Shown in pieces: positions 5,671-30,222 of a stretch of DNA of 32,363 bases. The notes under the pieces were generated by a model, which searched no databases, was not told the origin of the DNA, and saw only the letters and a list, made by a program, of their open reading frames with translations. The position numbers and the translations under genes were made by a program. Within the stretch, counting starts at the first letter, position 1. Each line of letters opens with the position of its first letter. The DNA comes from Planctomycetota bacterium (lineage in GTDB: Bacteria > Planctomycetota > Phycisphaerae > Sedimentisphaerales > Anaerobacaceae): positions 1,729,190 to 1,761,552 of the forward strand of contig CP070715.1 of NCBI GenBank assembly GCA_020350405.1. Direction: 5' to 3'.

Positions 5671-5672
5671 AG

Positions 5673-6413: not shown

Positions 6414-6427
6414 GGACGGAGGAAAGA

Positions 6428-7063
6428 ATGGCAAATGCAATCCGCTCGATAGCGTTGGATAAGTTAGTTGCGCATCCGGCGAGTGCGAATCGGCAGAGCA
6501 GGGTAACATTCGGCAAGCTGGTCCGAAACATAGAGCGAAGCGGGCTGTATGAGCCGTTGATAGTTCGGCCCTGTGCGGGGAGGGAAGGCTGCTTTGAGAT
6601 AATTAACGGGTGTCACCGGTGGCGTGCTTTGACTGAACTCGGGTATAAAAGGTGCGATTGTGTAGTGTGGGAGGTTGATGATGAGGAGGCTGAGATTTTA
6701 CTTTCGACGCTGAACCGGCTGGGGGGGACGGACGAATTAGGCAAGAAGCAGGCGCTGCTGAGACGGTTAAACAAGAAAAGGGAATTGGCGGAGCTTGGGA
6801 AGGTGCTGCCGCAGACGGCAAGGCAGATTGAGCGATTAGTGAATATGGAGCGGCCGGGCGCGGCGGTGAAGGCGAAGGCGGCAAATTTTGCGAATCCGGT
6901 GGTGTTTTTTGTGGATGATACGCAGCAGCAGATTATCGCGAAGGCTATTTCATTAGCCGGCGAGCGCGAGGCCAAAATGACAAAGGCCGGGAGACGGGCG
7001 ACAGGGCTGGCAACAATCGCCAAATACTTTCTTGACAATTCACAAATCAAGTCGCGGTCTTGA
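6428..7063 (+). CDS. ParB/Srx-like domain protein
   Basis: This 211-residue protein begins with a ParB N-terminal-like domain: IALDKLVAHPASANRQ (8-23), LIVRP (44-48) and NGCHRWRAL (60-68). The last replaces the usual ParB GxRRxxA box with a CHRWR form common in phage-linked ParB-like proteins. The region from 100 to 140 (DELGKKQALLRRL, then LPQTARQIERLV) may be a helix-turn-helix. The C-terminal 60 residues are not recognised. GGAGGAAAG precedes the ATG. It lacks the dimerisation domain of a true chromosomal ParB and has no ParA partner here, so chromosome partitioning is unlikely. ParB-like proteins often lie beside terminase genes in phages, which fits this operon. Confidence 0.8.
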   Translation: MANAIRSIALDKLVAHPASANRQSRVTFGKLVRNIERSGLYEPLIVRPCAGREGCFEIINGCHRWRALTELGYKRCDCVVWEVDDEEAEILLSTLNRLGGTDELGKKQALLRRLNKKRELAELGKVLPQTARQIERLVNMERPGAAVKAKAANFANPVVFFVDDTQQQIIAKAISLAGEREAKMTKAGRRATGLATIAKYFLDNSQIKSRS

Positions 7064-7067
7064 GGTT

Positions 7068-7496
7068 ATGGGAAGGCGCAAGTACCTAACTCAAAAGCAG
7101 TTAGCGGTTTTAGACGATTTATTCAACGGTGAGCTGGATGAGCAGGCGGTGCTGAAGGAACACAGGGTCCGGCGGGGGACATATGAGAGGTGGTTGGCGG
7201 ATCAGGCGTTTGCGGAGCAGTTTAAGCAATACGTTAACGTGCTTGCGCGCCGAAGCGAGCTTTTGTTGGCGAAATACAGTTGTGTGGCGGCGGCGAAATT
7301 GGTTGAGCTGACTGCGTCGGCGAAGGGGGAGATTGCGAGGCGGGCGTGTATTGATATTATGGGGATGCCGAAGAGGATTTCGCAGCAGCTAGAGGCGGCA
7401 AAGGTCTCTGAGTGTAGTGAGGTCGCGGAGATTCCGCGGCTGTCGGCGAGGGCAGCCAGCAAGCTGCTGGCGGTCTTGGCGGAGGACAAGGGGTGA
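7068..7496 (+). CDS. Small HTH protein, terminase small-subunit-like
   Basis: I use the ATG at 7068, 4 nt after the ParB-like stop. An upstream in-frame TTG at 7032 would overlap the previous gene and is less likely. The 142-residue protein has an N-terminal helix-turn-helix: QLAVLDDLFNGELDEQAVLKE then RRGTYERWLAD (about 11-45), followed by a helical region rich in alanine and charged residues. This is the layout of small terminase subunits and homeodomain-like DNA-binding proteins. The assignment is supported mainly by context, since ParB-like and TerL-like genes are nearby. A general HTH regulator remains possible. It is the last gene of the operon. Confidence 0.6.
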   Translation: MGRRKYLTQKQLAVLDDLFNGELDEQAVLKEHRVRRGTYERWLADQAFAEQFKQYVNVLARRSELLLAKYSCVAAAKLVELTASAKGEIARRACIDIMGMPKRISQQLEAAKVSECSEVAEIPRLSARAASKLLAVLAEDKG

Positions 7497-7524
7497 AAAA
7501 GCCACGGAAAAGCGGGCGCAAAAT

Positions 7525-7576
7525 AAGAGAGGCGTGGGTCCTTTTTTATGGTATGTATTCGAGACCAGCCTCTCTT
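7525..7576 (+). repeat. Long inverted repeat, possible operon terminator
   Basis: AAGAGAGGC (7525-7533) pairs perfectly with GCCTCTCTT (7568-7576). Inside it, TGGGTC and GACCA can extend the stem with one bulged G. The right arm runs into TTTT, so on the plus strand it can act as a terminator for the ParB/TerS-like operon that ends 29 nt earlier. The loop is long for a simple intrinsic terminator. Confidence 0.45.
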
Positions 7577-7580
7577 TTAA

Positions 7581-7649
7581 GATAATGCCATGCAGTATTT
7601 ATCATCGCCCTCACGAAGCCGAAAGGGGGCTTCATTGCATGGCACTATC
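7581..7649. repeat. Nested inverted repeat with inner hairpin
   Basis: GATAATGCCATGCA (7581-7594) pairs with TGCATGGCACTATC (7636-7649) over 14 positions with one mismatch. The mismatch is A-C on the plus strand but a G-U wobble on the minus strand. Inside lies a second stem GAAGCC (7615-7620) / GGCTTC (7628-7633) with a 7-nt loop. It could be a structured RNA, a REP-like element or a short non-autonomous element. No copy is seen elsewhere in the window. Confidence 0.4.
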
Positions 7650-7719
7650 TATATTAAAATATAACCCAACTTTTGGAGAAGGGGAAAAAATTTAGAGAAA
7701 AAAGTTAAAATAAAATGTT

Positions 7720-7747
7720 TTGACAGAATAAAGCTGGAAGTTAAAAT
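7720..7747 (+). promoter_or_regulatory. Sigma-70-type promoter upstream of rpiB
   Basis: TTGACA (7720-7725), a 16-nt spacer and TAAAAT (7742-7747) form a near-consensus promoter. Transcription would start near 7754, about 330 nt before the rpiB start codon. The transcript would therefore begin with a long leader. Confidence 0.6.
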
Positions 7748-7753
7748 AGGGGA

Positions 7754-7962
7754 GTAAAAGACAGATGTTAAAAAGGGAAACGGCGGCCTCCCTTTATCCT
7801 GTAATGTGGCTGGCGGTCCCGTCTCCCTTACAGGTTTATGTCACTCAACAAGTTAACACCAACCTCGCGAAGTCAGAACCTTTTATCGGCAGCTGTCTCT
7901 ATAAAGTATACACCATTTTTTGTCACTCGGTTCTGAAACAAACAAAAATTTGTTTTTTTTCG
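7754..7962 (+). ncRNA. Structured leader or free small RNA upstream of rpiB
   Basis: The segment after the promoter contains three successive complementary pairs: AAAGGGA/TCCCTTT, CCTGTAA/TTACAGG and TCAGAACC/GGTTCTGA. GTCACT/AGTGAC can close the last part. It ends in an AAACAAA...TTTGTTT pair that runs into TTTTT near 7955-7962, which could terminate transcription. I cannot match it to a known riboswitch class. It could be an attenuated 5' leader of rpiB or an independent RNA of about 210 nt. A 66-codon frame at 7765 overlaps it but has no convincing start signal. Confidence 0.35.
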
Positions 7963-8084
7963 TAAGTGACCTCTGCGCCGTCTGTAAAGGGGTAAGGCAA
8001 CGGCATAAGCGTCGGAGACATTAAAAAATGGTTGAATGGAACAGGGCTGCAGATATAATAGCGGCAGATAAGAAAGGGAAGATT

Positions 8085-8522
8085 ATGAAAATCGCGATTG
8101 CATCAGACCACGCGGGCTTTAGTTACAAGGAACAGATAAAGACGGTGTTGATAGAGCAGGGACACGAGCTGAAGGACTTCGGCGCGCACTCGGCGGAACC
8201 GGTTGACTATCCCGATTATATCCGCCCAGCGGCGGAGGCGGTGGCATCGGCGGAATGTGAGTGCGGGATAGTTCTGGGGGGCAGCGGCAACGGCGAGGCG
8301 ATGGTGGCGAACAAGGTGCGTGGGATACGCTGCGCGGTGTGCTGGGACCTTCGGTCGGCAAAGCTCAGCCGGGAACACAACAATGCCAACATGTTCTCGT
8401 TAGGCGAGCGGATGCTATCGATACACGAGGCTCTGGAGATAGTGGATTTGTGGCTGAAAACGCCATTCGCAGGCGACCGTCATCAGCGGCGTATCGAAAA
8501 GATTGAGAAACAGCAGGGGTGA
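8085..8522 (+). CDS. rpiB: Ribose-5-phosphate isomerase B / LacA-RpiB family sugar-phosphate isomerase
   Basis: The start is the ATG at 8085, preceded by AAAGGGAAG. A 19-codon extension to 8028 is possible but does not match the family, whose N-terminus is MKIAIASDHAGF as seen here. The 145-residue length fits RpiB. The GGSGNGE motif and REHNNANMFSLGERM are both present. GGSGNGE is the form found in the actinobacterial (Mycobacterium-type) RpiB, where a glutamate replaces the catalytic cysteine of the E. coli type. The enzyme interconverts ribulose-5-phosphate and ribose-5-phosphate in the non-oxidative pentose phosphate pathway; relatives act on other aldose phosphates. It may be cotranscribed with the sugar-related genes that follow. 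Confidence 0.9.
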   Translation: MKIAIASDHAGFSYKEQIKTVLIEQGHELKDFGAHSAEPVDYPDYIRPAAEAVASAECECGIVLGGSGNGEAMVANKVRGIRCAVCWDLRSAKLSREHNNANMFSLGERMLSIHEALEIVDLWLKTPFAGDRHQRRIEKIEKQQG

Positions 8523-8589
8523 ACGTAGACTGCGGGCAGGTTAGATGGTGATTAGCAGGAGGTATGCAGGTGATTTTTCGGGAGAAATC

Positions 8590-10410
8590 ATGAGAATCGA
8601 CGGTAGAGGTTGTATTTGGGGGATAGTATTTGTTTTACTTATAGGTTCGACCTGTTGCGGGCAGACGGTGCTGGTTGAGGCGGAGGGTTTCGAGGATGTT
8701 GGGGGCTGGGTGGTTGACCAGCAGTTTATGGACAAGATGGGCTCGCCGTATTTGCTCGCGCATGGATTAGGTGAGCCGGTTGCGGATGCAAGAACGACGG
8801 TTCGGCTCCCAGAGGTCGGGAAGTACCGGGTCTGGGTGCGTACTCGTGACTGGGTTGGACCGTGGAAGGCACCGGGAGGACCGGGTAAATTCCAAGCGCT
8901 TATTGACGGCAGAGCCCTAGAGACAGTCTTCGGGACTGAGGGGGCCGAGTGGCACTGGCAGGATGGAGGGACGGTTGAGATAAGCAAAAAAAAGGTTGAG
9001 ATTAATCTGCATGACCTGGCGGGCTTTGAAGGGCGGTGCGACGCAATTGTTTTTACAGGCGATGTGGATTTTGTTCCGCCTAATGACGGCGAGACAATGA
9101 AGGAGTTTCGGCGGAAGGCGCTGGGGCTGGGCGATGAGCCGGATGATGGCGGTGAATACGACTTAGTCGTGGTTGGGGGAGGTATGGCGGGGACATGTGC
9201 AGCTCTATCAGCGGCGCGGTCAGGATTAAACGTAGCACTTATTCAGAATCGTCCTGTTCTCGGCGGCAATAACAGCTCAGAAGTGCGGGTCTGGCTGGGG
9301 GGCAAGACGAACTTCGAGCCATATCCGAGGATTGGAGATGTAGTCAAGGAATTAGACCCGAAGAGGCGCGCGCATTACGGACCTGAAAACGTAGGCGAGA
9401 TATACGAGGACGAGAATAAGCTCGGAGTAGTTCGGGCGGAGAAGAATATCAGCTTGTTTTTGAACATGCACGCATTTGCGGTTGAAAAGGAAGGGGAGAG
9501 AATCGCCGCAGTGGTTGCCAAGCATATCCGGAACGGCAGGGAGGTGCGTTTTTCGGGTCGGGTTTTCGCGGACTGCACGGGGGACGGGACGATAGGTTTT
9601 CTTGCAGGCGCCGATTTCGATATGACAATCAAGGGGCACATGGGCAGGAGCAACCTGTGGAACGTGGCGGACACAGGCAGGCCGGTGAGTTTCCCTCGAT
9701 GTCCGTGGGCGGTCGATATGCGAGGCAAGGCGTTTCCGGGAGACGGCAACAGTCCAGGAACTTACGGCAAGAAAAACGTGGAGGCGCTTGGGGGCTGGTA
9801 CTGGGAGAGCGGATTTTTTTATGACCCGATTGAGAAGGGTGAGTACATACGCGATTTGAACCTGCGGGCGATGTACGGGGCGTGGGACTATCTTAAGAAC
9901 GAGGCGAAGCTCTATCCGAACCACAAGTTGGCGTGGGCGGCGTATATATCGGGCAAGCGTGAGTCGCGGCGGCTGTTGGGGGACGTTATTTTAACTGCGC
10001 AGGATTTGCTCGGCAACAAGAAGTACGAGGACGGGTGTGTGCCGACGAGCTGGGACATGGATACCCATCTTCCGCTGGCGAAGTATGTGAGCGATTTCGG
10101 GGAAGACGCATTTATTTCGCTGGACTACCACACGGCGTACCCACGGCCGTACTGGATACCGTACAGGTGTTTGTATTCGCGGAACATAGGAAATTTATTC
10201 ATGGCGGGGCGGGACATAAGCGTAACGCATGAGGCGCTGGGGACGGTGCGGGTGATGCGGACGACCGGTATGATGGGCGAGGTTGTCGGAATGGCGGCAA
10301 CACTCTGCAAGAAGCATGGTACGAGTCCACGAGGTGTGTATAAGGAGCATCTGGGAGAACTTAGGGAACTGATGAAAAAGGGTGTAGGCAGGAAGAAAGA
10401 GGTGCGGTAA
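8590..10410 (+). CDS. Secreted FAD-dependent oxidoreductase
   Basis: The start is placed at the ATG at 8590 because GGGAG lies 6 nt upstream and the protein then begins with a signal peptide ending at about residue 23; an in-frame ATG at 8545 is less likely. The 606-residue protein has an N-terminal beta-rich region (about 25-165) resembling a carbohydrate-binding-type module. The FAD dinucleotide-binding fold follows, marked by VVVGGGMAGTCAALSAARSG, then GGNNSSEVRVW and later DCTGDGTIGFLAGA. A C-terminal MAGRDISVTHEALGTVRVM block completes the FAD_oxidored-type pattern. Such proteins are frequent in polysaccharide-degrading loci of planctomycetes and related bacteria, where their substrate is mostly unknown. 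The next gene is an agarase-type glycosidase, so a role in modifying a marine polysaccharide is likely but inferred. Confidence 0.8.
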   Translation: MRIDGRGCIWGIVFVLLIGSTCCGQTVLVEAEGFEDVGGWVVDQQFMDKMGSPYLLAHGLGEPVADARTTVRLPEVGKYRVWVRTRDWVGPWKAPGGPGKFQALIDGRALETVFGTEGAEWHWQDGGTVEISKKKVEINLHDLAGFEGRCDAIVFTGDVDFVPPNDGETMKEFRRKALGLGDEPDDGGEYDLVVVGGGMAGTCAALSAARSGLNVALIQNRPVLGGNNSSEVRVWLGGKTNFEPYPRIGDVVKELDPKRRAHYGPENVGEIYEDENKLGVVRAEKNISLFLNMHAFAVEKEGERIAAVVAKHIRNGREVRFSGRVFADCTGDGTIGFLAGADFDMTIKGHMGRSNLWNVADTGRPVSFPRCPWAVDMRGKAFPGDGNSPGTYGKKNVEALGGWYWESGFFYDPIEKGEYIRDLNLRAMYGAWDYLKNEAKLYPNHKLAWAAYISGKRESRRLLGDVILTAQDLLGNKKYEDGCVPTSWDMDTHLPLAKYVSDFGEDAFISLDYHTAYPRPYWIPYRCLYSRNIGNLFMAGRDISVTHEALGTVRVMRTTGMMGEVVGMAATLCKKHGTSPRGVYKEHLGELRELMKKGVGRKKEVR

Positions 10411-10445
10411 AATCGCTTCGGCAATCGGTGTTGAAGGAGAAAATG

Positions 10446-12596
10446 ATGACAGTAAGAGCGCTATTGTTGAGCACTGCAATACTTGTTTGGGGATGCCAGG
10501 TCACAGAAAGTGCGGTACCGAGCGTGGTAGAGGAGGAAGGGGCGCTGGTTCTTTTTGACTTTGAGGGGGATTTTGACATTGGCAAGGTCAATACGAGCGG
10601 TGACGCCAAGGTTAGTCTGTCGGACGGCAAGCGCGGCAAGGCCCTACGGATAGCGACGGGCGGGAAGGAACCAAGGGCCGGAGTTACGCTCGGCGCGCCT
10701 CGGAGACGGTGGGACCTGTCCGAGTATGTTTACGTGGCGATGGACGTGCGGAACGTGGGGGCAGATGATGTGATGGTGAACTGCCGGGTCGATGATAAGC
10801 AGTGGGTGGACGGTAGTGTTGCGGCGCCGGCGGGAGAGCAGAGGACACTGATGGCGCTACTGAAGCGCGATATACCGCCGGGGGAATTGGCCAAGTATCT
10901 GTTTGGTATGAACGGGCTGCCGGGTGGACACGTCTGGATTTGGGCGCCCGTTTATCCGAAGCGGACGAGGGAGCTTGTTATTGCTGTTGTAGAACCGAAG
11001 GGGCCGAAGGTTGTTGAGATTGACAATATCCGGGCGGTCGGCTCTTACGAGGTACCATCGGAGGAGGATCTGAAGTTATCATATTTTCCGTTTATCGATG
11101 CTTACGGTCAGTACAATAAAAAGGACTGGCCGGGCAAGACGCATTCAGAAGAGGACTTTGAGCGGGCAAAGAAGGAAGAGGCTGCGGATTTAGAGGAGCA
11201 TCCGGGGCCAAGTGACTGGAACAAGTACGGCGGTTGGGCATCCGGGCCGAAGCTCGAAGCGACGGGGCGTTTCCGCGTGGAGAAGTATCAGGGCAAATGG
11301 TGGTTGGTTGACCCGGAGGGGCGGTTGTTCTGGTCGCATGGTGTGGACTGCGTGAATATGCGGTTCGGTTCGACACCTGTCAGCGACCGCGAGCACTATT
11401 TTGAGAATCTGCCGGACCCGAAGACAGCAGTAGGGAAGTTCTACCAGATGGGCAGCCGTGCTCCGCACGGGTACTACAAGGGGCGAAACTCGTATAAGAC
11501 GTACGACTTCGGCCGGGCGAACCTGCTTCGCAAGTACGGCGAGGACTGGCAGGAGGCGTTTGGCGAGGTCAGTCACAAGCGCCTGCGGAGCTGGGGCATG
11601 AACACCATCGCAAACTGGTCGGCGCCGCCGATTTACCTTATGCGCAAGACAGCCTACGTGGGGACGATCCATACGGGCGGTCGGCCCATAGAGGGCGCGA
11701 AGGGGCACTGGCGCAAGTTCCCTGATCCGTTTGCCGCGAGCTTTCGTTCCGGGCTGACGCAGCGACTTACAATGGTGGAAAAGAACAAGAACAGGACAAC
11801 GAACGATCCGTGGTGCATCGGTTATTTTGTCGACAATGAGATGACCTGGGGTGACGAGACATATCTTGCGACGGGGTGCTTGCAGTCGCCGGCAGACCAG
11901 CCGGCCAAGATGGCCTTTGTTGAGGAGCTGAAGTCAAAATACGGGTCTATTAGAAAATTGAACGCTTACTGGGCGACAAACTATGGTTCGTGGGAGGCGC
12001 TATCGGAAAGTAGAACGAAACCTCGGGGGAAAAATGCCGAGGCGGACCTGAAGGCGTTTTCGGTGAAGATAGCGGAGCAGTATTTTAAGGCGGTCAGAGA
12101 TGCAATAAAGCAGGTTGCGCCGAAGAAGCTGTATTTGGGGTGTCGGTTTGACTTTCATTTTTATCCCGGGGAAGAGAAACACCGTGAATGGGTGATTCAC
12201 GTGGCGGCAAAATACTGTGACGTTATAAGTTTCAACAGGTACAGGTTCAGCGCGGGGACACTGGTGCCGCCGAAAGGGATAGACAAGCCGCTGATTATTG
12301 GAGAATTCCATTTCGGGGCACTGGACAGGGGGATGTTCCATACGGGGCTGCGGAGCGTGACGGACCAAGCCCAGCGCGGCGAGATGTACATAAGCTATGT
12401 GAAGAGCGCATTGGAGAATCCGTACATGATAGGGACGCACTGGTTTCAATATGGCGACCAGGCGACGACGGGCCGGCGGGACGGGGAGAATTATCAGGTG
12501 GGTTTCGTTGACATCTGTGACACACCGTATCCGGAGACTGTAAAGGCTTGTCGGGAGGCTGGATACAAGCTTTATGAATACAGGATGGGAAAGTAA
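10446..12596 (+). CDS. GH50-type agarase-like glycoside hydrolase (lipoprotein)
   Basis: AAGGAG lies 6 nt before the ATG at 10446, which I prefer to the adjacent ATG at 10443 and to an upstream GTG at 10428. The 716-residue protein begins with a signal segment ending in LVWGC, a plausible lipobox. A beta-sandwich domain (about 30-200) is followed by a catalytic domain with GH50 hallmarks: DAYGQYNKKDWPGK, GKWWLVDPEGRLFWSHG, GYFVDNEMTWG and IIGEFHFG. Glu465 in DNE is the expected acid/base and Glu620 in GEFHFG the nucleophile. GH50 enzymes release neoagaro-oligosaccharides from agarose or act on related beta-galactans. The exact substrate cannot be fixed from sequence. The preceding gene is 35 nt upstream, so cotranscription is likely. 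Confidence 0.85.
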   Translation: MTVRALLLSTAILVWGCQVTESAVPSVVEEEGALVLFDFEGDFDIGKVNTSGDAKVSLSDGKRGKALRIATGGKEPRAGVTLGAPRRRWDLSEYVYVAMDVRNVGADDVMVNCRVDDKQWVDGSVAAPAGEQRTLMALLKRDIPPGELAKYLFGMNGLPGGHVWIWAPVYPKRTRELVIAVVEPKGPKVVEIDNIRAVGSYEVPSEEDLKLSYFPFIDAYGQYNKKDWPGKTHSEEDFERAKKEEAADLEEHPGPSDWNKYGGWASGPKLEATGRFRVEKYQGKWWLVDPEGRLFWSHGVDCVNMRFGSTPVSDREHYFENLPDPKTAVGKFYQMGSRAPHGYYKGRNSYKTYDFGRANLLRKYGEDWQEAFGEVSHKRLRSWGMNTIANWSAPPIYLMRKTAYVGTIHTGGRPIEGAKGHWRKFPDPFAASFRSGLTQRLTMVEKNKNRTTNDPWCIGYFVDNEMTWGDETYLATGCLQSPADQPAKMAFVEELKSKYGSIRKLNAYWATNYGSWEALSESRTKPRGKNAEADLKAFSVKIAEQYFKAVRDAIKQVAPKKLYLGCRFDFHFYPGEEKHREWVIHVAAKYCDVISFNRYRFSAGTLVPPKGIDKPLIIGEFHFGALDRGMFHTGLRSVTDQAQRGEMYISYVKSALENPYMIGTHWFQYGDQATTGRRDGENYQVGFVDICDTPYPETVKACREAGYKLYEYRMGK

Positions 12597-12651
12597 AAAT
12601 TTAAAACCTTTCTAATAATTGGGGGCAAGGCCTGAAACATTGACGTGATTT

Positions 12652-12680
12652 TTGCATTGGTTGAGTAATACGGATATACA
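12652..12680 (+). promoter_or_regulatory. Possible promoter of the TerL-like gene
   Basis: TTGCAT (12652-12657) and TATACA (12675-12680) are separated by 17 nt. A TTGACG lies at 12640. Transcription would start near 12687, ahead of a G-rich ribosome binding region. The match is modest. Confidence 0.35.
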
Positions 12681-12719
12681 ATTAGCGCGCCAAATCAGGG
12701 GGGGGTAGAGACGGCAAGG

Positions 12720-14204
12720 GTGGGATTAGATAAATCCAAATTGAAAGGAAACATAGAAAAGGTCGGTGGCGTATATTCGGCGCTTAGGCGTGTACGGCCG
12801 GAGAGCCGGCGGGACCTTGGGAATTACGTGAAGGTCTTTTTGGGGATTGATGTTCCCGATAAGAAAATCTGCGGTGAGCACAACAGTCCGATGGATTATC
12901 TCTGGTATAGTTTTTCGAGTGACTTTGATGCGGAGAAGCGGACGAATGCGGACGCGGTAGTATGGGCGAACCGCGGCGGGGGCAAGACGGAGTTAGCGGC
13001 GATAGCAACGCTATTGGACTGCGTTTTTAAGCCGGGCTGTCAGGTGCGGATATTGGCCGGGTCGGGTGAGCAGGCGGGTAGGATGTACGAACATTTAACC
13101 GGCTTTTTAAACAACGGGTTTGATGAACTGCTTGCGGGGGCGGTGTTGAAAGGTAAATGCAGGTTTGCCAACGGTTCCGGGGTTGAGGTCCTGACGCAAT
13201 CGGCGGCGAGCGTGCGGGGGCAGCATATTCAGAAACTTCGATGCGATGAGGTCGAGCTGTTCGATGAAAAGGTCTTTTCGGCAGCGAAGTTCACCACGCA
13301 CAGCAAGGCAGGACTAACAGCGGGTATGGAGATGATAAGCACGATGCATCGGCCGTATGGATTGATGCAAAGGATAGTCACATCAGCGAAGCAATTCGGC
13401 ACGCCGGTATTTAGGTGGTGCATGTGGGAGGCGATTGAGAGGTGCAGGGACAGGAGCTGCTCGCAGTGCAGCCTGTTGGGTGATTGTCAGGGTAAGGCGA
13501 AGAAGGCGGATGGTTATTTGAAGATAGATGACTGCATCAGCGCGATGCATCGCGCGAGCAGGGCCGGGTGGGAGGCGGAGATGTTGTGCAAGAGGCCAAG
13601 CAGGGAGCATGTCGTCTTTGACGAATTTGACCCGGACGTACACGTTAAGTCGGTAGACTATGACGCGAATCTACCGTTGTACCGAGCGATTGATTTTGGT
13701 TTTGTCAATCCGTTTGTGTGTCTGTGGATTCAGGTTGACGATGAGGGGGTCGTGCGGGTGATCGATGAATACGTCCGAAGCAGGGCAACGATTGATGTAC
13801 ACGCGGAACAGATAAAGGAAAGGACGCCGGGCGGTGAGGAGCGTGTGGCGGCGACCTTCTGTGACCCGGCCGGCAGAAGTACGAATGATGTTACCGGCAC
13901 AAGTACCATTCGTGAGCTGCGCAGTCTGGGGATAGCCGTTCGGTATCGGCGGAGCGGGATTTTGGAGGGCATTGAGCTTATCCGGCGGGCGATAAGGGCG
14001 GGGGACGGCAAAAGCAGATTGGTGATTTCGCCGAGGTGCCAGCGGCTGATAGAGGCGATGCGGTGCTATCATTATCCGGAGGGCGGCACGGCGGCGAGCG
14101 AGCTGCCGTTAAAAGATGGGCTGTACGACCATCCGATAGACGCCCTGCGATACTTCTTCGTCAATTACAAACACAGCGACAAGACCACAAGCAGAAGGTA
14201 TTAA
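12720..14204 (+). CDS. Terminase large-subunit-like ATPase/nuclease
   Basis: This 494-residue protein has both halves of a phage DNA-packaging motor. The ATPase shows ANRGGGKTELAA with the P-loop at 83-90 and a Walker B-type KLRCDEVELFD with Asp176-Glu177. The C-terminal RNase H-like nuclease is marked by AIDFGFVNPFVCLW (Asp325), IDEY (Asp349), FCDPAG (Asp382) and YDHPIDALRYFF (Asp470, Asp474). Between them lies a cysteine cluster at Cys242, Cys247, Cys250 and Cys256, in the pattern C-x4-C-x2-C-x5-C, which may bind zinc or an iron-sulphur cluster. All catalytic residues appear intact. The start is a GTG. No portal, capsid or tail gene is found in the 18 kb downstream. It is on the same strand as the ParB/TerS-like operon but 5.2 kb away. 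Confidence 0.85.
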   Translation: MGLDKSKLKGNIEKVGGVYSALRRVRPESRRDLGNYVKVFLGIDVPDKKICGEHNSPMDYLWYSFSSDFDAEKRTNADAVVWANRGGGKTELAAIATLLDCVFKPGCQVRILAGSGEQAGRMYEHLTGFLNNGFDELLAGAVLKGKCRFANGSGVEVLTQSAASVRGQHIQKLRCDEVELFDEKVFSAAKFTTHSKAGLTAGMEMISTMHRPYGLMQRIVTSAKQFGTPVFRWCMWEAIERCRDRSCSQCSLLGDCQGKAKKADGYLKIDDCISAMHRASRAGWEAEMLCKRPSREHVVFDEFDPDVHVKSVDYDANLPLYRAIDFGFVNPFVCLWIQVDDEGVVRVIDEYVRSRATIDVHAEQIKERTPGGEERVAATFCDPAGRSTNDVTGTSTIRELRSLGIAVRYRRSGILEGIELIRRAIRAGDGKSRLVISPRCQRLIEAMRCYHYPEGGTAASELPLKDGLYDHPIDALRYFFVNYKHSDKTTSRRY

Positions 14205-14327: not shown

Positions 14328-15440
14328 ATGGACATCGGGCGGCAATTGAAAATTGCAAGGGAATCCATCGGCTATACTTTGCAGAAAGTCGAAGAGGAAA
14401 GCGGTATAGGCAAATCTTCTCTTAGCGAATTTGAAAACGGCAGAAGAGAACCCAAGTTTTCCCAACTCAGCAGGTTAGCAGAGGTTTACAAGAGAGCGAT
14501 AGAATTCTTCTTTGCTGATGAACCGCCTATTGAGAACATTATGCTTTGGCGAGAAACGCCAAGCATTGAGGGAGAGAAAGAGATGATAGAGGCGGAATTC
14601 CGTCAGCTTTGCCATCGGTACCGCAACCTTGAAGTGGTTATGAACGAAGTGAAAGAGAACAAACTGCCGGAGTTAGATATCGACCGTGAAAAGTTTAGCT
14701 ATAAAGATGCTAACGAGCTCGCAGAGGAAACGCAAAGACGGTTTTTGCTGGGCGACGTACCATGTACATCGCTAAAGCATACGTTGGAGGAGAAGTTCTA
14801 TGTGAAGATATTCCATTTGGCCTTCTCTGGCTCGGGAAGCGCGATTTCAACAGTATCCCAGGAATTCGGCCCGGCCATCTTGTTAAACTCAGCGAGCAAA
14901 CTATGGCGTCGCAATTTTGACCTTGCTCACGAATTATTTCACATCTTAACCTGGAAAGTTTTTAGAAGCGGCGATTTCGAAGGTAGCGAGCCAAGCAAAT
15001 ATGAGGAAAAACTCGCCAACGCATTTGCGAGCAGACTATTATTGCCAACAGACGTTGTTAAGGGAAAGATAGAAAGTGGTATGAACGAGAAAGGGCAGAT
15101 TGGTTTGGAGGCGTTGGACGAGATAGCAAGAGAGTTTGGTGTTTCAACAGAAGCTTTGCTGTGGCGATTGCTGTATCTCTATAATAAGCCTGCGGAAGAG
15201 GTCGAAAAGTACATCGAACAGGTAAAAAGCCTAAGGTTTAATCGACCCGCGCGCCGATCGGACGAGCCAGATAAACTTCCGGAGCGTTATTGCAGTTTGG
15301 CGATAAGGGCCCTTGGTGAAGGGAAGTTGTCACTGATTCAATTTGCCAAGTACATGGGCATAAGTTACAAGCAAGCAGAGGAGTATCTCATGGATGAAGG
15401 GGGCTTCAAGGATGAAGAAGTTTCAATTTCTGTTGCTTGA
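14328..15440 (+). CDS. XRE-family HTH regulator with ImmA/IrrE metallopeptidase domain
   Basis: This 370-residue protein follows an almost ideal ribosome binding site, AAAGGAGGTGAT. Residues 5-60 form an XRE helix-turn-helix (IGRQLKIARESIGYTLQKVE, then SLSEFENGRREP). Residues about 130-260 are an ImmA/IrrE-type peptidase domain with the zinc-binding motif HELFH at 201-205 and a following EEKLANAFASRLLLP helix that carries the third ligand. Related proteins cleave or control a partner repressor or toxin. The gene overlaps the PIN-like gene by 29 nt, so the two are translationally coupled. It is likely the antitoxin and autorepressor of the pair, judging from gene order and the flanking operators. 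Whether it degrades a protein is not shown. Confidence 0.85.
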   Translation: MDIGRQLKIARESIGYTLQKVEEESGIGKSSLSEFENGRREPKFSQLSRLAEVYKRAIEFFFADEPPIENIMLWRETPSIEGEKEMIEAEFRQLCHRYRNLEVVMNEVKENKLPELDIDREKFSYKDANELAEETQRRFLLGDVPCTSLKHTLEEKFYVKIFHLAFSGSGSAISTVSQEFGPAILLNSASKLWRRNFDLAHELFHILTWKVFRSGDFEGSEPSKYEEKLANAFASRLLLPTDVVKGKIESGMNEKGQIGLEALDEIAREFGVSTEALLWRLLYLYNKPAEEVEKYIEQVKSLRFNRPARRSDEPDKLPERYCSLAIRALGEGKLSLIQFAKYMGISYKQAEEYLMDEGGFKDEEVSISVA

Positions 15441-15930
15441 TGCCGGGCCCATTATCAAACTTTTTCAATTAGGCGTCTGGGGTGAGTTCATCGAGAAGTG
15501 CCATGCGACGATAGCATGTACAGTGGTAGAGCAATGCATTCACAAGGGGGGAGGTGATGCGCTTGACTACATTGATTTTCCTTTTGAAGAAGCTGATGTA
15601 AAAGGCCTGATTAAAATCGTCGAGGTTGAGCCGTCGGAAGTTAAGGCCTTTTATGATGAGTCTCATGTGGAAGGGAGATATATAATTGACGGCGGAGAGC
15701 AGGAAACGCTAGCGTTCGTACATAGGCAATCGGAAGATTGGAAGGTGTGCAGTACTGACAGAGCGGTTTATAGTGTTCTTGGATTCTTGGGAAAAGGTGA
15801 GCTGGGGGTCTCTTTAGAGGAGATTCTAAAGGAGGTAGGACTGTCAAAAGGCAAATTGGAATGGAAATACACCAGAAAATTCCGTGAGAAGTTCACGCGT
15901 AAGGGTGAGGTGGACGCGGTTCAAAGTTAG
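15412..15930 (+). CDS. PIN-like domain protein, probable toxin of the pair
   Basis: I place the start at the ATG at 15412 (GAAGGGGG upstream) because the protein then begins MKKFQFLLLDAGPIIKL, the usual PIN-like start with Asp10 as the first metal ligand. Other likely acidic residues are Glu40 (TVVEQ), Glu96/Glu98 (GGEQETLAF) and Asp116 (CSTDRAVY), matching the PIN nuclease layout. The protein is 172 residues long with a basic C-terminal tail (KYTRKFREKFTRKGE). PIN toxins are ribonucleases. The gene overlaps the upstream XRE/peptidase gene by 29 nt, typical of toxin-antitoxin operons. The family is divergent, so nuclease activity is inferred. Confidence 0.75.
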   Translation: MKKFQFLLLDAGPIIKLFQLGVWGEFIEKCHATIACTVVEQCIHKGGGDALDYIDFPFEEADVKGLIKIVEVEPSEVKAFYDESHVEGRYIIDGGEQETLAFVHRQSEDWKVCSTDRAVYSVLGFLGKGELGVSLEEILKEVGLSKGKLEWKYTRKFREKFTRKGEVDAVQS

Positions 15931-25253: not shown

Positions 25254-27305
25254 ATGTATCTGAGATATTTAGTTGGTTTTGTTTTGTTGAGTATAAGTGT
25301 TGCCGTTTGCACAGCGGCCCCCGGTGAGCAGACTCATCCGTTTTCGGTCCACGACATACTGGCGATGGAGAGGATTTCGGACCCGCAGGTTTCGCCCGAC
25401 GGCGAGTGGATTGTTTTTGTGCTGCGGAAGACCGACCTTGAGGAGAATCTCGGGCGGACCGACCTCTGGCTGGTTGGTGTGGATGGCGTGGGACTAAGGC
25501 GTCTGACATCGCATCCGGAAAACGATTTTAATCCCCGCTGGGCCCCCGACGGCAAGAGCATATGGTTTCTTTCGAAGCGGTCGGAGTCGTCACAGGTCTG
25601 GCGGATAAGAATCGACGGAGGTGAGGCGGAACAGGTAACAGATTTGCCTCTGGATGTCGGCAATCTGGTTGTCTCGCGTGATGGCAGGCACATCGCGTTT
25701 ACGATGGAGGTTTTTGTAGACTGCAATAGTATCGAGTGCACAAAGGACAGGCTCGACGAAATCGAGAACAAAAAGGCGAGCGGGCGGATTTACGATAGAA
25801 TATTTGTTCGTCACTGGGATACGTGGAAGGACGGCAGGCGTTCGCACCTGTTTGTGATGCCGACAAAAGGAGGTGAACCAATTGATGTGATGCAAGGTAC
25901 GGACGCCGATACACCTTCGAAACCCTTTGGCGGTCCGGGGGAGATTACTTTTACGCCGAACGGCAGGGGAATTATCTTTACCGCACGTGATGTGGGTCGG
26001 GAGGAACCGTGGTCGACCGACCTCGACCTTTACCAGGTTTTCATCGACGGTTCGAAGCCGCCAAGATGTCTGACCGAGAAAAATCAGGCATGGGATACAG
26101 GTCCAGTTTTCTCACCTAATGGCAAGACACTCGCATATTTAGCTATGGTCAGGCCGAGGTACGAATCGGACCGCTTTCGAATCATCCTCAGGCCCTGGCC
26201 GGAGGGCAAAGAGCGGGTTTTGACGGAGGATTGGGACAGAAGTCCCTCGTCAATCTTTTGGGCGCCGGACTGCCGAACCATCTATGCAAGGGCAAGTAAC
26301 ACAGGGCAAAAATCTCTCTTCGCCATTGATGTAAAGACCGGCGAAGTTCGTACCGTGGTCAAAGATGGCTATGTCAGTTCGCCACGCGCGGCAGGTGAGA
26401 AGATTATTTACGGGCTGGATAACCTCAGGTCGCCGGTTGAATTGTATTCAGTCAGGCCCGACGGCAGTGATGTACGCAAAATAACCAAAATCAATGCAGA
26501 AAAAATCGCTGCCGTTCGGATGAGGGAGCATGAGCAGTTTTCTTTCAAAGGATGGAACGATGAAAAGGTCTACTGCTATGTTGTAAAGCCGGCGGATTTT
26601 GACGCGAGCAAAAAGTATCCGGTGGCCTTTTTGATTCACGGCGGCCCGCAGGGTTCTTTCGGGAACCATTTCCATTATCGGTGGAACCCACAGGTGTATG
26701 CCGGGGCAGGTTACGGAGCGGTCATGGTGGACTTTCATGGCTCGGTAGGATACGGCCAGGCCTTCACCGACTCAATCAGGGGCGACTGGGGCGGCAAGCC
26801 TTTAGTGGATTTGCAGAAGGGCCTTGCCACTGCGCTAAAACGCTATCCGTGGATGGACGGCGAGAGGGTATGCGCCCTAGGCGCTTCATTCGGCGGTTAT
26901 ATGATTAACTGGATTGCGGGCCAATGGCCGGACGGTTTTAAGTGCCTGGTCAATCATGCCGGCACTTTAGATGAGCGTTTTGGGTATTTTGACACGGAAG
27001 AATTGTGGTTTCCCGAGTGGGACCATATCGGGACACCGTGGGACAATCCGGAGAGTTACGAAAAACATAACCCTGTCAACTATGTCAAGAACTGGCGGAC
27101 GCCAATGCTGGTTATTCACGGAGCAAACGACTTTCGAGTCGTAGAGACGCAGGGCTTGTCCACATTTAACGCCCTGCAGCGGCTTGGTATTGAAAGTAAG
27201 CTGTTGTACTTTCCGGATGAAGGCCACTGGATAAACAAGCCGGCAAACTCAATCCTCTGGCACGAGACGGTCCTCAGCTGGCTCGATGAATGGGCGAAAG
27301 AATAA
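25254..27305 (+). CDS. Exported S9-family prolyl oligopeptidase-like peptidase
   Basis: AAAGGGGAAA precedes the ATG. The 683-residue protein starts with a signal peptide (about 1-22). The region from about 30 to 420 is a beta-propeller with TolB/WD-like repeats (DPQVSPDGEWIVFVLRK, RWAPDGKSIWFLS, FSPNGKTLAYLA). The alpha/beta hydrolase domain follows, with an HGGPQGSFG oxyanion region, the nucleophile Ser545 in GASFGGYM, Asp626 in HGANDFRV and His658 in DEGHWI. This is an intact S9C-type catalytic triad. The enzyme should cleave peptides outside the cytoplasm; such peptidases serve nutrient peptide uptake. The exact specificity is unknown. It stands between the kinase and coaD without obvious operon links. 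Confidence 0.9.
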   Translation: MYLRYLVGFVLLSISVAVCTAAPGEQTHPFSVHDILAMERISDPQVSPDGEWIVFVLRKTDLEENLGRTDLWLVGVDGVGLRRLTSHPENDFNPRWAPDGKSIWFLSKRSESSQVWRIRIDGGEAEQVTDLPLDVGNLVVSRDGRHIAFTMEVFVDCNSIECTKDRLDEIENKKASGRIYDRIFVRHWDTWKDGRRSHLFVMPTKGGEPIDVMQGTDADTPSKPFGGPGEITFTPNGRGIIFTARDVGREEPWSTDLDLYQVFIDGSKPPRCLTEKNQAWDTGPVFSPNGKTLAYLAMVRPRYESDRFRIILRPWPEGKERVLTEDWDRSPSSIFWAPDCRTIYARASNTGQKSLFAIDVKTGEVRTVVKDGYVSSPRAAGEKIIYGLDNLRSPVELYSVRPDGSDVRKITKINAEKIAAVRMREHEQFSFKGWNDEKVYCYVVKPADFDASKKYPVAFLIHGGPQGSFGNHFHYRWNPQVYAGAGYGAVMVDFHGSVGYGQAFTDSIRGDWGGKPLVDLQKGLATALKRYPWMDGERVCALGASFGGYMINWIAGQWPDGFKCLVNHAGTLDERFGYFDTEELWFPEWDHIGTPWDNPESYEKHNPVNYVKNWRTPMLVIHGANDFRVVETQGLSTFNALQRLGIESKLLYFPDEGHWINKPANSILWHETVLSWLDEWAKE

Positions 27306-27337
27306 GCAGCTTATTCAGATGCGATGCGCGAAGCGGT

Positions 27338-27365
27338 TTGACGCGTGGGGCGGTTTGGGTATAAT
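27338..27365 (+). promoter_or_regulatory. coaD promoter
   Basis: TTGACG (27338-27343), a 16-nt spacer and a perfect TATAAT (27360-27365) precede coaD. Transcription would begin near 27372, giving a leader of about 20 nt that carries the ribosome binding site. Confidence 0.6.
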
Positions 27366-27391
27366 AGCGGCTTTGGAAAAGAGGTGCAGGA

Positions 27392-27895
27392 ATGGCCAAG
27401 AAACATGTAAGGGCGATTTTCCCCGGCTCGTTCGACCCGATTACAAACGGGCATTTAGACGTTATTAAACGCGGCATAGAGCTCTTTGACGAGCTTATTA
27501 TCGCGGTCGGTCGAAGCCCCATAAAGAATCCGCTGTTCACGCCGGACGAGCGGGTGGAGATGATTGCCGAGCTGGTGGCGGATATACCGGGGGTCTCGGT
27601 GGAGAGCTTTGACGGGCTGACGGTCGAATACGCCGCCAAGAAAAAGGCCGAGGTTATTCTGCGGGGTCTGCGGAGCCTTACGGACGTACAGTATGAGTTC
27701 AAGCTTGCCATGACCAATCGGGCGGTGGCGGGGATAGAAACTGTTTTTATTATGACGAGCGAGGAATACGGCTTTACCAGTTCGACCCTGATTCGCGAGG
27801 TCGCTTCATTGGGCGGCAACGTCTCGAACCTGATTCCGAAAAATATCTACGACCGCGTGCAGCAGCGCCTTGAAAGATTAAAAAATCAACAATAA
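27392..27895 (+). CDS. coaD: Phosphopantetheine adenylyltransferase
   Basis: The 167-residue protein matches CoaD throughout. FPGSFDPITNGHLDVI (10-25) holds the nucleotide-binding (T/H)xGH motif as NGH, RGLRSLTDVQYEF is the conserved central block, and YGFTSSTLIREVASLGG carries the family's SSTxxR motif. It catalyses transfer of AMP from ATP to 4'-phosphopantetheine, the penultimate step of coenzyme A synthesis, in the cytoplasm. It has its own promoter at 27338. The PTPS-like gene follows after only 14 nt. Confidence 0.97.
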   Translation: MAKKHVRAIFPGSFDPITNGHLDVIKRGIELFDELIIAVGRSPIKNPLFTPDERVEMIAELVADIPGVSVESFDGLTVEYAAKKKAEVILRGLRSLTDVQYEFKLAMTNRAVAGIETVFIMTSEEYGFTSSTLIREVASLGGNVSNLIPKNIYDRVQQRLERLKNQQ

Positions 27896-27909
27896 GTTGC
27901 TCTGCAAGG

Positions 27910-28320
27910 ATGCAGCGTCAATGTAGGTCGGGTAGCTGGAGTTTTGTTTTGTTTACAGTCAGCGTAGAAACGCACTTTTGGGCGTCACATGAGTTGGCCC
28001 TGCCGGACGGCTCAAGAGAGCCGCCGCACCAGCACAACTGGGCGGTTACCGCCGAGGTCAGCGGCAACGAGCTCAACAGAATGGGGCTTGTAATGGATTT
28101 TCAGCGGCTCAGGACGATGCTCGATAGTATCGCTGGCGAGCTCGATAACACCACCATTGAGAAAATCGACTATTTCCAAAAGAACTGCTCGTCTGCTGAG
28201 AACTTGGCCAGATATATATATGAGAGGCTTGAACCCAAACTACCTAAGGGCGTAAAACTTGAGGTGGTCAGGGTTGGTGAGGAGCGGGGTTGCTCGGCGA
28301 AATTCAGCCAGGATGGTTGA
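27910..28320 (+). CDS. 6-pyruvoyl-tetrahydropterin synthase / QueD family protein, non-canonical active site
   Basis: The 136-residue frame begins at the ATG at 27910, but the recognisable fold starts at FTVSVETHFWASHEL. A TTG at 27949 with GGAG upstream may be the true start. Two of the zinc-binding histidines sit in the HQHNW box, and the third is probably a histidine of THFWASHEL. The usual catalytic cysteine of the C-x3-HGH motif is absent: here the sequence is GSREPPHQHNW, with Glu three residues before the first His. GLVMDFQRL and the C-terminal glutamate region (LEVVRVGEERG) are present. The family makes pterins or the queuosine precursor. With this variant motif the reaction cannot be assigned. 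It may be cotranscribed with coaD. Confidence 0.8.
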   Translation: MQRQCRSGSWSFVLFTVSVETHFWASHELALPDGSREPPHQHNWAVTAEVSGNELNRMGLVMDFQRLRTMLDSIAGELDNTTIEKIDYFQKNCSSAENLARYIYERLEPKLPKGVKLEVVRVGEERGCSAKFSQDG

Positions 28321-28440
28321 GGCCGCCGGCCCATTAGGACGCATTACCGGGTGCACGGCCCCTTAGAGGGCAAAAACTGTGTGGGAACCAGAGGATGGCC
28401 AAGGGGCAAAGGGGCAAATCGGCCTACAGAGGCCCTTAAA
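28321..28440. other. Intergenic region between the PTPS gene and the mcsA promoter region
   Basis: This stretch is rich in GGCC and GGGGCAAA repeats, including AAGGGGCAAAGGGGCAAA near 28400-28417. I see no gene, tRNA or clear terminator. Confidence 0.3.
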
Positions 28441-28549
28441 ATTTGACGATTATTCAAATGGAATGCGCGTATAATCAATACGTAATAAGCCGGCCGCTGA
28501 GACGGACCTGTAAATTTGACAACACCTCAAGGCGGAATTCTGGTATAAT
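28441..28549 (+). promoter_or_regulatory. Tandem inverted-repeat promoter elements upstream of mcsA
   Basis: Two copies of one arrangement lie 73 bp apart. Copy 1 is ATTTGA-N7-TCAAAT (28441-28459) followed by TATAAT at 28470-28475. Copy 2 is ATTTGA-N7-TCAA (28514-28530) followed by an extended -10, TGG plus TATAAT at 28544-28549. The distance from repeat start to -10 is 29 and 30 nt, and both contain GGAAT after the repeat. The second would give a leader of only about 14 nt before the mcsA ATG, and the first about 88 nt. The repeats resemble operators. They are not the direct heptamer repeats of known CtsR boxes. Confidence 0.55.
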
Positions 28550-28569
28550 ACGGAAAAGGGCGTACTTGC

Positions 28570-29067
28570 ATGTATTGTCAGAACTGCCAAGAAAAAGAAG
28601 CGACTATTCATCTGACCGAGATAACGGACGGGCTGCGCACTGAGACGCATCTTTGTGAGCAGTGTGCCCAGAAAGAGGGCGTAGCGGTCAAAAGCCAGCT
28701 TTCTATCAATGAGCTGCTGAGCAGCCTGCTTGCAAGCCAGCCGTCGGACGACGAAGTGTTCGGCGATTCCAAGCAAAATACCTCTTGTCCGCACTGCGGC
28801 TCGACATTAGAGCAATTCACCAAGAACGCGGTGTTAGGTTGTCCTTATGATTATGAGGTCTTTGAGAAATCGCTGCTGCCGCTTATCAAAAAGGCTCATA
28901 ACGGCAAAAAAACCCACTGCGGCAAGGTCCCTTCAAAAACATCAACAGGTACAAAAAAGCAGATAGAGCTTATGAAGCTGCGCCAAGAACTGGAAGCAGC
29001 GGTGCAAAACGAGGATTACGAACTGGCAGCCGAATTGCGGGACAAAATAAATCAGCGCGAAAAGTAA
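28570..29067 (+). CDS. mcsA: McsA-type protein with zinc-binding pairs and UVR motif
   Basis: The 165-residue protein starts MYCQNCQEKEATIHLTEI and has four CxxC-type pairs: CQNC at 3-6, CEQC near 34-37, CPHC near 73-76, and a later cysteine pair that is less regular (LGCP, with THCGK). The C-terminus is a UVR motif (LRQELEAAVQNEDYELAAELRDKI). This is the McsA layout. In Bacillus, McsA activates the arginine kinase McsB and the two feed damaged proteins to ClpC. The mcsB gene follows after 30 nt. There is no ctsR or clpC next to it here. The short leader and the tandem elements upstream suggest a stress-controlled promoter. Confidence 0.85.
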   Translation: MYCQNCQEKEATIHLTEITDGLRTETHLCEQCAQKEGVAVKSQLSINELLSSLLASQPSDDEVFGDSKQNTSCPHCGSTLEQFTKNAVLGCPYDYEVFEKSLLPLIKKAHNGKKTHCGKVPSKTSTGTKKQIELMKLRQELEAAVQNEDYELAAELRDKINQREK

Positions 29068-29097
29068 CAAGCGATGTTTGCAACCGGATAACCTTAT

Positions 29098-30222
29098 ATG
29101 AAGCTGACCGATATAAGTGCTAATATAAACGAATGGTTTGACGGCTCGGGGCCGCTGGCGGATATTGTCATATCCTCGCGGATTCGTTTAGCCAGGAACA
29201 TAGCGGGGCATAAGTTCCTCAGCCGCTGCTCCGTCGCTGAGAAGTCAGAAATACTAAAGAAGCTCAGAGACACGCTGATGTCCCTGGAGCTGGGGGACAA
29301 AGTTTTCTATCTCAGCGTGGACAAAACCTCTCTTCTGGGCAGACATTTCCTTGTGGAGAGGCACCTGATCAGCCGGCACCACGCTTTCGGCAATGGGCCC
29401 CGCGGGGCGGTCATCGCCCAGCGGGAGTTTTTCACCGCAATGATTAACGAAGAGGACCACCTCCGAATCCAGGTACTAAAAGGGGGGTGTCAGCTGAGCC
29501 AGTGTTATGAGCAGATAAATCGTATCGATGATATGATAGAGCAAAAGGTGGATTACGCCTTTAGCCCGCGCTACGGTTACCTGACGGCGTGTCCGACCAA
29601 TCTGGGCACGGGGATAAGGGTCTCGGTAATGCTGCATCTGCCGGCGTTGAAGATGACCGGCCAAATCGAGAAGTTCCTGAACGCGACGAGGGACATGGGC
29701 CTGGCTGTGCGGGGCCTGTTCGGCGAAGGCACCGAGGCGGCAGGCGATTTCTATCAGATATCCAATCAGGTGACGCTCGGGGCTTCAGAGTCGGACATAA
29801 TATCGCTGTTTGAAAACGCGATTATTCCCGAGATTGTTGAATACGAGAATGCGGCGAGGAACCAGCTGCTATCAAAGGAGCCTGAAGTGCTCGACGACAA
29901 AATCTCGCGGGCGATGGCGCTTTTGCGAAATGCCCATCTTATAAGTTCTCAGGAGGCGCTGTTTTTGTTAAGTCACCTGCGCATGGGTATTAATATGCGC
30001 GAGCATTTGGGCGCTTCGACGCCGGCAATAGAGAAGCTGTCTGGGCTAAGCGATGCCAGCAGGGGTACGGACAAGTCCGAGACACTTTCCATCAGTACCA
30101 TAAATCGCCTGTTTATGCTTACTCAGCCTGCACATCTGCAGTTAAACTACGGAAAGCAACTGGGTCCTGAACGCAGAGACGCACTCAGGGCCGAAATAAT
30201 CCGCTCAGCACTTAACGGATAG
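29098..30222 (+). CDS. mcsB: Protein arginine kinase McsB
   Basis: The 374-residue protein carries the phosphagen-kinase-type fold of McsB. Key motifs are SSRIRLARNIAGHKF, NEEDHLRIQVLKGG (the McsB form of the loop) and LTACPTNLGTGIRVSVMLHLP with the conserved active-site cysteine, plus RGLFGEGTEA with FYQISNQVTLG for nucleotide binding. The C-terminal helical part (about 290-374) is present, so the protein is complete. McsB phosphorylates arginines on damaged proteins and marks them for ClpCP. It forms a pair with mcsA. The ribosome binding site is weak, which suggests coupling to mcsA. Confidence 0.95.
   Translation: MKLTDISANINEWFDGSGPLADIVISSRIRLARNIAGHKFLSRCSVAEKSEILKKLRDTLMSLELGDKVFYLSVDKTSLLGRHFLVERHLISRHHAFGNGPRGAVIAQREFFTAMINEEDHLRIQVLKGGCQLSQCYEQINRIDDMIEQKVDYAFSPRYGYLTACPTNLGTGIRVSVMLHLPALKMTGQIEKFLNATRDMGLAVRGLFGEGTEAAGDFYQISNQVTLGASESDIISLFENAIIPEIVEYENAARNQLLSKEPEVLDDKISRAMALLRNAHLISSQEALFLLSHLRMGINMREHLGASTPAIEKLSGLSDASRGTDKSETLSISTINRLFMLTQPAHLQLNYGKQLGPERRDALRAEIIRSALNG

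Follow-up and report, generated by a model that had tools for sequence, protein, structure and literature searches.

Upstream of mcsA, the Sedimentisphaerales carry a conserved two-box element which recurs before clpC and which is predicted, from its sequence and spacing, to be a promoter of the sigma-28/WhiG type. In the window, by which we mean the whole 32,363-nt stretch of DNA analysed, this element occupies positions 28425-28452, and we consider it likely that a WhiG-like sigma factor encoded in the same genome (L088) co-drives mcsAB and clpC from such sites alongside a sigma-70-type promoter, rather than that the region harbours a new inverted-repeat switch. The McsAB–ClpC system has been studied mostly in Firmicutes, where it is under CtsR. 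A conserved WhiG/FliA-type promoter at mcsA and clpC offers a concrete, testable answer to the question of how these genes may be coordinated without CtsR; if the prediction is true, protein quality control would join motility and development among the roles of this sigma family. The promoter class and the sigma family are already known; what is new is the prediction that planctomycetes employ them at mcsAB and clpC, our literature search having found no publication in which WhiG/FliA controls clpC or mcsA in these bacteria.

The genome of the window (G000) is a single contig of 2.96 Mb, 84% complete. The features discussed below are as follows.

27910-28320, plus strand: upstream gene, QueD/PTPS-like (6-carboxytetrahydropterin synthase; PF01242, TIGR03367 below cut-off)
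28425-28429, plus strand: TACAG, predicted -35-like box (TNYAG) of WhiG/sigma-28 type, at N15 from GNCGAT in 50/75 regions; genome position of the element G000:C1:1757614-1757641
28430-28444, plus strand: 15-nt spacer, A/T-rich beside the -10 box (spacing profile)
28445-28452, plus strand: GACGATTA, predicted -10-like box (GNCGATWW), to be compared with GCCGATAA and RYCGAWRN
28428-28475, plus strand: copy 1 of a tandem duplication, sigma-28-type boxes kept (local alignment)
28441-28459, no strand: first inverted repeat, ATTTGA-N7-TCAAAT, not conserved (shuffles, same genus, 88 regions)
28470-28475, plus strand: TATAAT of copy 1, sigma-70-type -10 hexamer (letters present)
28500-28549, plus strand: copy 2 of the tandem duplication (local alignment), also found in the same-genus locus L022
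28514-28530, no strand: second inverted repeat, ATTTGA-N7-TCAA, not conserved (shuffles, same genus, 88 regions)
28541-28549, plus strand: TGGTATAAT, extended -10 of sigma-70 type in copy 2, conserved in L022, likely the mcsAB housekeeping promoter
28570-29067, plus strand: mcsA, 165 aa, activator of protein-arginine kinase (NF053706, E 1.1e-43, 149 bits, below the cut-off of 210; UVR motif PF02151)
29098-30222, plus strand: mcsB, 374 aa, protein-arginine kinase (NF002194, 392 bits, cut-off 385; PF00217)

A conserved two-box element upstream of mcsA

The conserved element reads TNYAG-N15-GNCGAT. In the window it consists of TACAG, the spacer and GACGATTA, with TTTGACGAT as the -10 side, and it lies partly upstream of the span singled out in the earlier note, outside which its -35 side falls. 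The mcsA set comprised 89 loci taken from a larger number of matches, of which L041, having no upstream sequence, was left out, so that 88 regions were compared. One site per region was picked by GNCGAT and its A/T neighbours alone, which gave a site in 75 regions and none in 13. TNYAG was located exactly 15 nt upstream of GNCGAT in 50 of these 75 sites, and no other spacing between 6 and 35 was seen in more than two. The more relaxed pattern AG-N15-GNCGAT[AT] is present in 57 of the 88 regions (45 of 70 genera), compared with three on the reverse strand and a mean of 1.0 (maximum 5) in 100 shuffles, and the flanks of the element have diverged. The distant McsA loci L307-L310, which do not belong to Sedimentisphaerales, showed no two-box element whose -35 would fit.

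The strict pattern TNYAGN12WWWGNCGATWW was also considered as the definition of a regulon in 41 genomes. It was rejected: matches were few per genome, many of them at chance level with controls alike in several genomes, and the sites opened besides mcsA (L436-L438) fall inside ORFs.

The same element before clpC

ClpC is the unfoldase taking McsB-marked proteins. The abstract of PMC8370763 describes ClpCP in the same way. The regions upstream of clpC from 49 of 50 genomes were compared, G033 being left out since the N-terminus was not located. AG-N15-GNCGAT[AT] occurs in 38 of the 49 (35 of 44 genera), with one on the reverse strand and a shuffle mean of 0.54 (maximum 2). GNCGAT itself is present in 47 of them, preceded by AG at N15 in 37 of the 47 and at other spacings from 6 to 29 in five at most. 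The extended form AAAG-N15-GNCGATA, which reached at most 1 in shuffles, is found in 33 of the 49 regions, so that clpC carries the more canonical version of the element. Among seven genomes checked at this gene, six showed AAAG- or CAG-N15-GTCGATAA, and G028 a poor match. None of five regions before clpB contained the element.

Relationship with the sigma-28/WhiG promoter class

The flagellar/WhiG consensus comprises TAAA and GCCGATAA, as given in part of PMC8325347, and that of chlamydial sigma-28 is TAAAGWWY-N11/12-RYCGAWRN in the passages used from PMC8762339, which corresponds to TAAAG followed by 14 or 15 nt up to the -10 box. The -10 side agrees with GCCGATAA/RYCGAWRN, both through GACGATTA in the window and through GNCGAT in 75/88 mcsA and 47/49 clpC regions. 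The fixed spacing agrees as well, with a sharp peak at N15 and with N14 before the sigma factor's own gene. As regards the -35 side, clpC retains TAAAG except for its first T (AAAG in 33/49), and at mcsA the TNYAG box keeps the T, A and G of TAAAG, AAAG-N15 being present in none of the 88 regions. The element of the window fits this promoter class in its -10 box and spacing, with a weak -35, and two sigma factors encoded in the genome, L088 and L090, pass the TIGR02479 cut-off of the corresponding family.

It could be argued that the two boxes, being about 20 bp apart, are half-sites separated by two helical turns and form the operator of an unknown activator or repressor rather than a promoter, the more so as a sigma-70-type -10 often follows (51/75) and a separate TTGACA/TATAAT lies downstream of the element at clpC. 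We hold this to be improbable: the boxes do not repeat one another in either orientation, and the non-palindromic element is nearly always oriented in the direction of the gene at both mcsA and clpC (57 versus 3, and 38 versus 1). Its distance to TATAAT ranges between 11 and 139. Furthermore, a known promoter class is matched in sequence and in spacing.

Sigma factors L088 and L090

With a region-2 model, the genome gave 20 matches to the sigma-70 family. Scores were obtained for three of the longer matches, two of which belong to the FliA/WhiG family (FliA_WhiG, TIGR02479, cut-off 189.6): L088, located at G000:C1:21788-22561 (261.9 bits), and L090 (196.8 bits). On the WhiG equivalog model NF004935, L088 reaches 265.9 bits, below the curated cut-off of 343, and is therefore described here as a WhiG-like member of the FliA/WhiG subfamily rather than as WhiG proper. 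Among solved structures, its best relatives are 6pfv and 6pfj, the RsiG–WhiG complexes, and the alignment shares the stretches DELR..DW.PR.VR and ESRVSQ.H. Nearby genes include a small MerR-like one, a 138-aa ORF with no Pfam match and an ORF read as dapF. The sigma gene is preceded by TAAAG-N14-GNCGATAA in G000, G001, G011, G015 and G054, with a spacing one base shorter than that of the mcsA/clpC element; no site of this type was seen before the ortholog in G025 and G028. L090 is probably the flagellar FliA, because it shortly follows an ORF read as FlhA.

Both sigma factors being FliA_WhiG members, and L090 being found behind the FlhA-like ORF, the elements might be read by FliA (L090) instead of L088, which would make mcsAB and clpC flagellar late genes. 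This appears quite unlikely, as G011 and G015 have an L088 ortholog and no FliA-like second match at E 1e-12, and still keep the elements before mcsA and clpC; each has two matches, the other of which sits in a frame of about 600 aa, the size of RpoD. Moreover, L088 orthologs are widely and strongly conserved, being present in most of 80 genomes (none was found in 12) with 62-97% identity among the matches listed.

Two further observations concern these loci. The 138-aa ORF beside L088 (L485, 7078-7491) is also found at L487 in G015, a genome without a FliA-like second sigma. The 20 sigma-70-family matches of the 3-Mb genome G000 include a short sigma resembling RpoS/RpoD (L082), and several of them are sigma-like domains within longer frames.

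Presence of the sigma factor and of the element

Three genomes that are 98-99% complete (G027, G032 and G036) possess neither sigma factor and neither element, whereas G048, from the same family, has the sigma together with both elements. This joint absence may represent one loss event, since the three genomes make up two genera of a single family. Across the whole set the correspondence is looser. The sigma was found and the element missing in 23 of 68 genomes for mcsA and in 7 of 44 for clpC; conversely, the sigma was not found and the element present in 6 of 12 and 1 of 5, respectively. Most genomes of the latter kind are incomplete assemblies; G003, in which both elements are present and no sigma was found, is 91% complete.

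Genome-wide counts were rejected as a diagnostic of the sigma factor. Matches to HAG-N15-GNCGATAA exceed their control in the genomes lacking it too (29 versus 19 in G032, 30 versus 9 in G036, 49 versus 20 in G027), compared with 28 versus 22 in G011, which has it, and TAAA-N15/16 gave 28 versus 30 in the same G011.

Sigma-70-type promoters and other known controls

TATAAT follows GNCGAT in 51 of the 75 mcsA regions with a site, at distances of 11 to 139, and TGN precedes it in 33 of the 75. These extended -10 sequences, and the absence of the mcsA element in 23 of 68 genomes that have the sigma, would suit an explanation in which only the sigma-70-type promoters (TATAAT at 28470 and 28544) matter and GNCGAT is a conserved remnant, a reading that becomes very unlikely when the box and its spacing are retained over 45/70 genera at mcsA and 35/44 at clpC between diverged flanks. 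A sigma-70 -35 at TTTGAC was discarded; it lies 21-22 nt from TATAAT, which is too long, and a promoter scan had no plus-strand site there.

With regard to CtsR, its operator consists of tandem GTCAAA heptads. Such heptads occur in 0/88 mcsA and 0/49 clpC regions, which bears out the earlier note's contrast with the direct repeats bound by CtsR at mcsA and extends it to clpC. A PF05848 search for ctsR gave no match in the 84%-complete genome, the control search having matched only Lactococcus and not Bacillus subtilis, also among the control genomes, although B. subtilis has CtsR. The HrcA/CIRCE sequence TTAGCACTC-N9-GAGTGCTAA, as exact consensus only, is present in 0/88 mcsA and 0/49 clpC regions, and for structured RNA leaders, no Rfam match was obtained at E<=1 within positions 27300-29200.

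A duplicated region with a fortuitous inverted repeat

The earlier note had described a duplicated promoter region before mcsAB, and all the letters are indeed present. Copy 1 comprises ATTTGA (28441-28446), N7, TCAAAT (28454-28459), GGAAT (28460-28464) and TATAAT (28470-28475), and copy 2 ATTTGA (28514-28519), N7, TCAA (28527-28530), GGAAT (28534-28538) and TATAAT (28544-28549). The offset of 73 bp given there holds for the first part, GGAAT and TATAAT being 74 apart. Local alignment of the two copies, which has one-base gaps, scores 18, a value compared with no more than 12 in any of 1000 shuffles; ungapped identity at offset 73 is only 18/39. They are an old, diverged tandem duplication. 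Copy 2 reads GACAACA in place of GACGATT, with its upstream AG shifted one base further off, so that the sigma-28-type element has been lost there.

The inverted repeat is another matter. The earlier note had let its functional reading stand or fall with conservation upstream of related mcsA genes, and among the 88 regions of Sedimentisphaerales the repeat occurs in one, the window's own. In the same-genus locus L022 it is broken in both copies, which read TTGACGATTATCTG (copy 1) and TTGACAACACCTTAA (copy 2). Over the whole genome, TTTGA-N7-TCAA has 20 matches compared with 15 for the reversed control, so that the inverted repeat as such is not enriched. Taken together, the 1/88 conservation, the breakage in L022 and genome counts near the control show that the repeat is the product of chance plus duplication, a coincidence of this genome, and it was rejected as an operator. 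The proposal that an unrecognised stress regulator binds a duplicated ATTTGA-N7-TCAAAT is hardly credible for these same reasons, even though two copies stand 73 bp apart and TTGA-N7-TCAA occurs three times in the window versus 0.54 expected, a number reached in 2 of 100 shuffles. What survives of it is an implied regulator other than CtsR, common to clpC, though one predicted to be a sigma of a known family and not an unrecognised repressor.

Proposed mechanism and comparison with known systems

Returning to the predicted sigma-28/WhiG-type promoter, TACAG-N15-GACGATTA would start an mcsAB transcript with a leader of roughly 110 nt, and the WhiG-like sigma L088, when free, would bring the polymerase to both 28425-28452 and the element before clpC. 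Upon induction, McsB, which marks proteins, its activator McsA and the unfoldase ClpC would rise together without CtsR, while the sigma-70-type extended -10 at 28541-28549 would give basal mcsAB expression. In this genus, the duplication may have split two functions, copy 1 retaining the alternative promoter and copy 2 the stronger extended -10.

In Bacillus subtilis, the ctsR-mcsA-mcsB-clpC operon is repressed by CtsR and has sigma-B and sigma-A promoters. Both systems would control McsA, McsB and ClpC jointly, pairing a housekeeping promoter with one for an alternative group-3 sigma; here, however, mcsAB lies apart from clpC, CtsR operators were not found, and the alternative sigma is FliA/WhiG-like and not SigB. 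The -35 and -10 classes resemble those of the flagellar promoters of E. coli FliA (sigma-28), whereas here proteolysis genes are the targets, and the sigma likely to read them is a paralog encoded away from the locus that contains L090.

Chlamydia trachomatis, from a related PVC phylum, has sigma-28 promoters that share the -10 core and allow the same two spacings (N14 or N15 between AG and the -10). According to the passages of PMC10597470 cited here, double knockdown of chlamydial sigma-28 and sigma-54 lowered mcsB 3.93-fold and mcsA 2.71-fold, and knockdown of sigma-54 alone lowered mcsA 2.27-fold. In those passages mcsA is not presented as a sigma-28 target, whereas mcsA and clpC themselves carry the sigma-28-type element here. 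The WhiG of Rubrobacter radiotolerans is likewise a WhiG-like sigma with a TAAA/GCCGATAA promoter and a type IV pilus regulon, and similar sites precede T2SSF, pilM and pilin-like genes in our genome; clpC and mcsAB are not mentioned in the part of PMC8325347 cited here. As a tentative proposal, the Sedimentisphaerales WhiG-like sigma might couple surface life to protein turnover, a single switch serving type IV pilus genes, itself, ClpC and McsAB and removing arginine-phosphorylated regulators at a change of cell state, with the chlamydial drop in mcsAB perhaps a vestige of one ancient circuit shared across PVC bacteria.

Other candidate targets and neighbouring genes

Intergenic TAAA-/AAG-type sites in G000 precede pilM (L260), a T2SSF-domain gene (L255, pilC/gspF-like) and a pilin-like gene (L421/L422), as well as a sigma-54 activator (L254), a trypsin-like protease (L259) and an ORF that we read as signal-peptidase-like (L427). 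This list is biased toward promising sites, many opened sites being inside ORFs and the genome-wide counts showing no enrichment that tracks the sigma. Those also seen in another genome are the sites of the sigma gene, of an 86-aa ORF (L250) and of the pilin-like gene. The latter gene (L421, G000:C1:2604750-2606500; N_methyl) lies directly behind AAAAG-N15-GTCGATAA, the clpC-like form, in G001 too. The conserved protein of about 86 aa, without Pfam match (L250, 460-717, site at G000:C1:783247; L251-L253), lies behind TAAAG-N15-GCCGATAA, a site nearly identical in G000, G001, G015 and G054, and is a candidate anti-sigma factor or regulator.

Elsewhere in the window, positions 5026-14204 encode a large protein resembling a terminase (Terminase_6C) together with a ParB_N protein and an ATPase of ABC type. 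The genes scanned there include no further phage gene, and the stretch may be a phage-like element that is unusual or has decayed. Finally, at 14328-15930, a protein with HTH and IrrE-like (Peptidase_M78) domains overlaps a 178-aa ORF without Pfam match, an arrangement that looks like a two-gene toxin–antitoxin or immunity–repressor pair.
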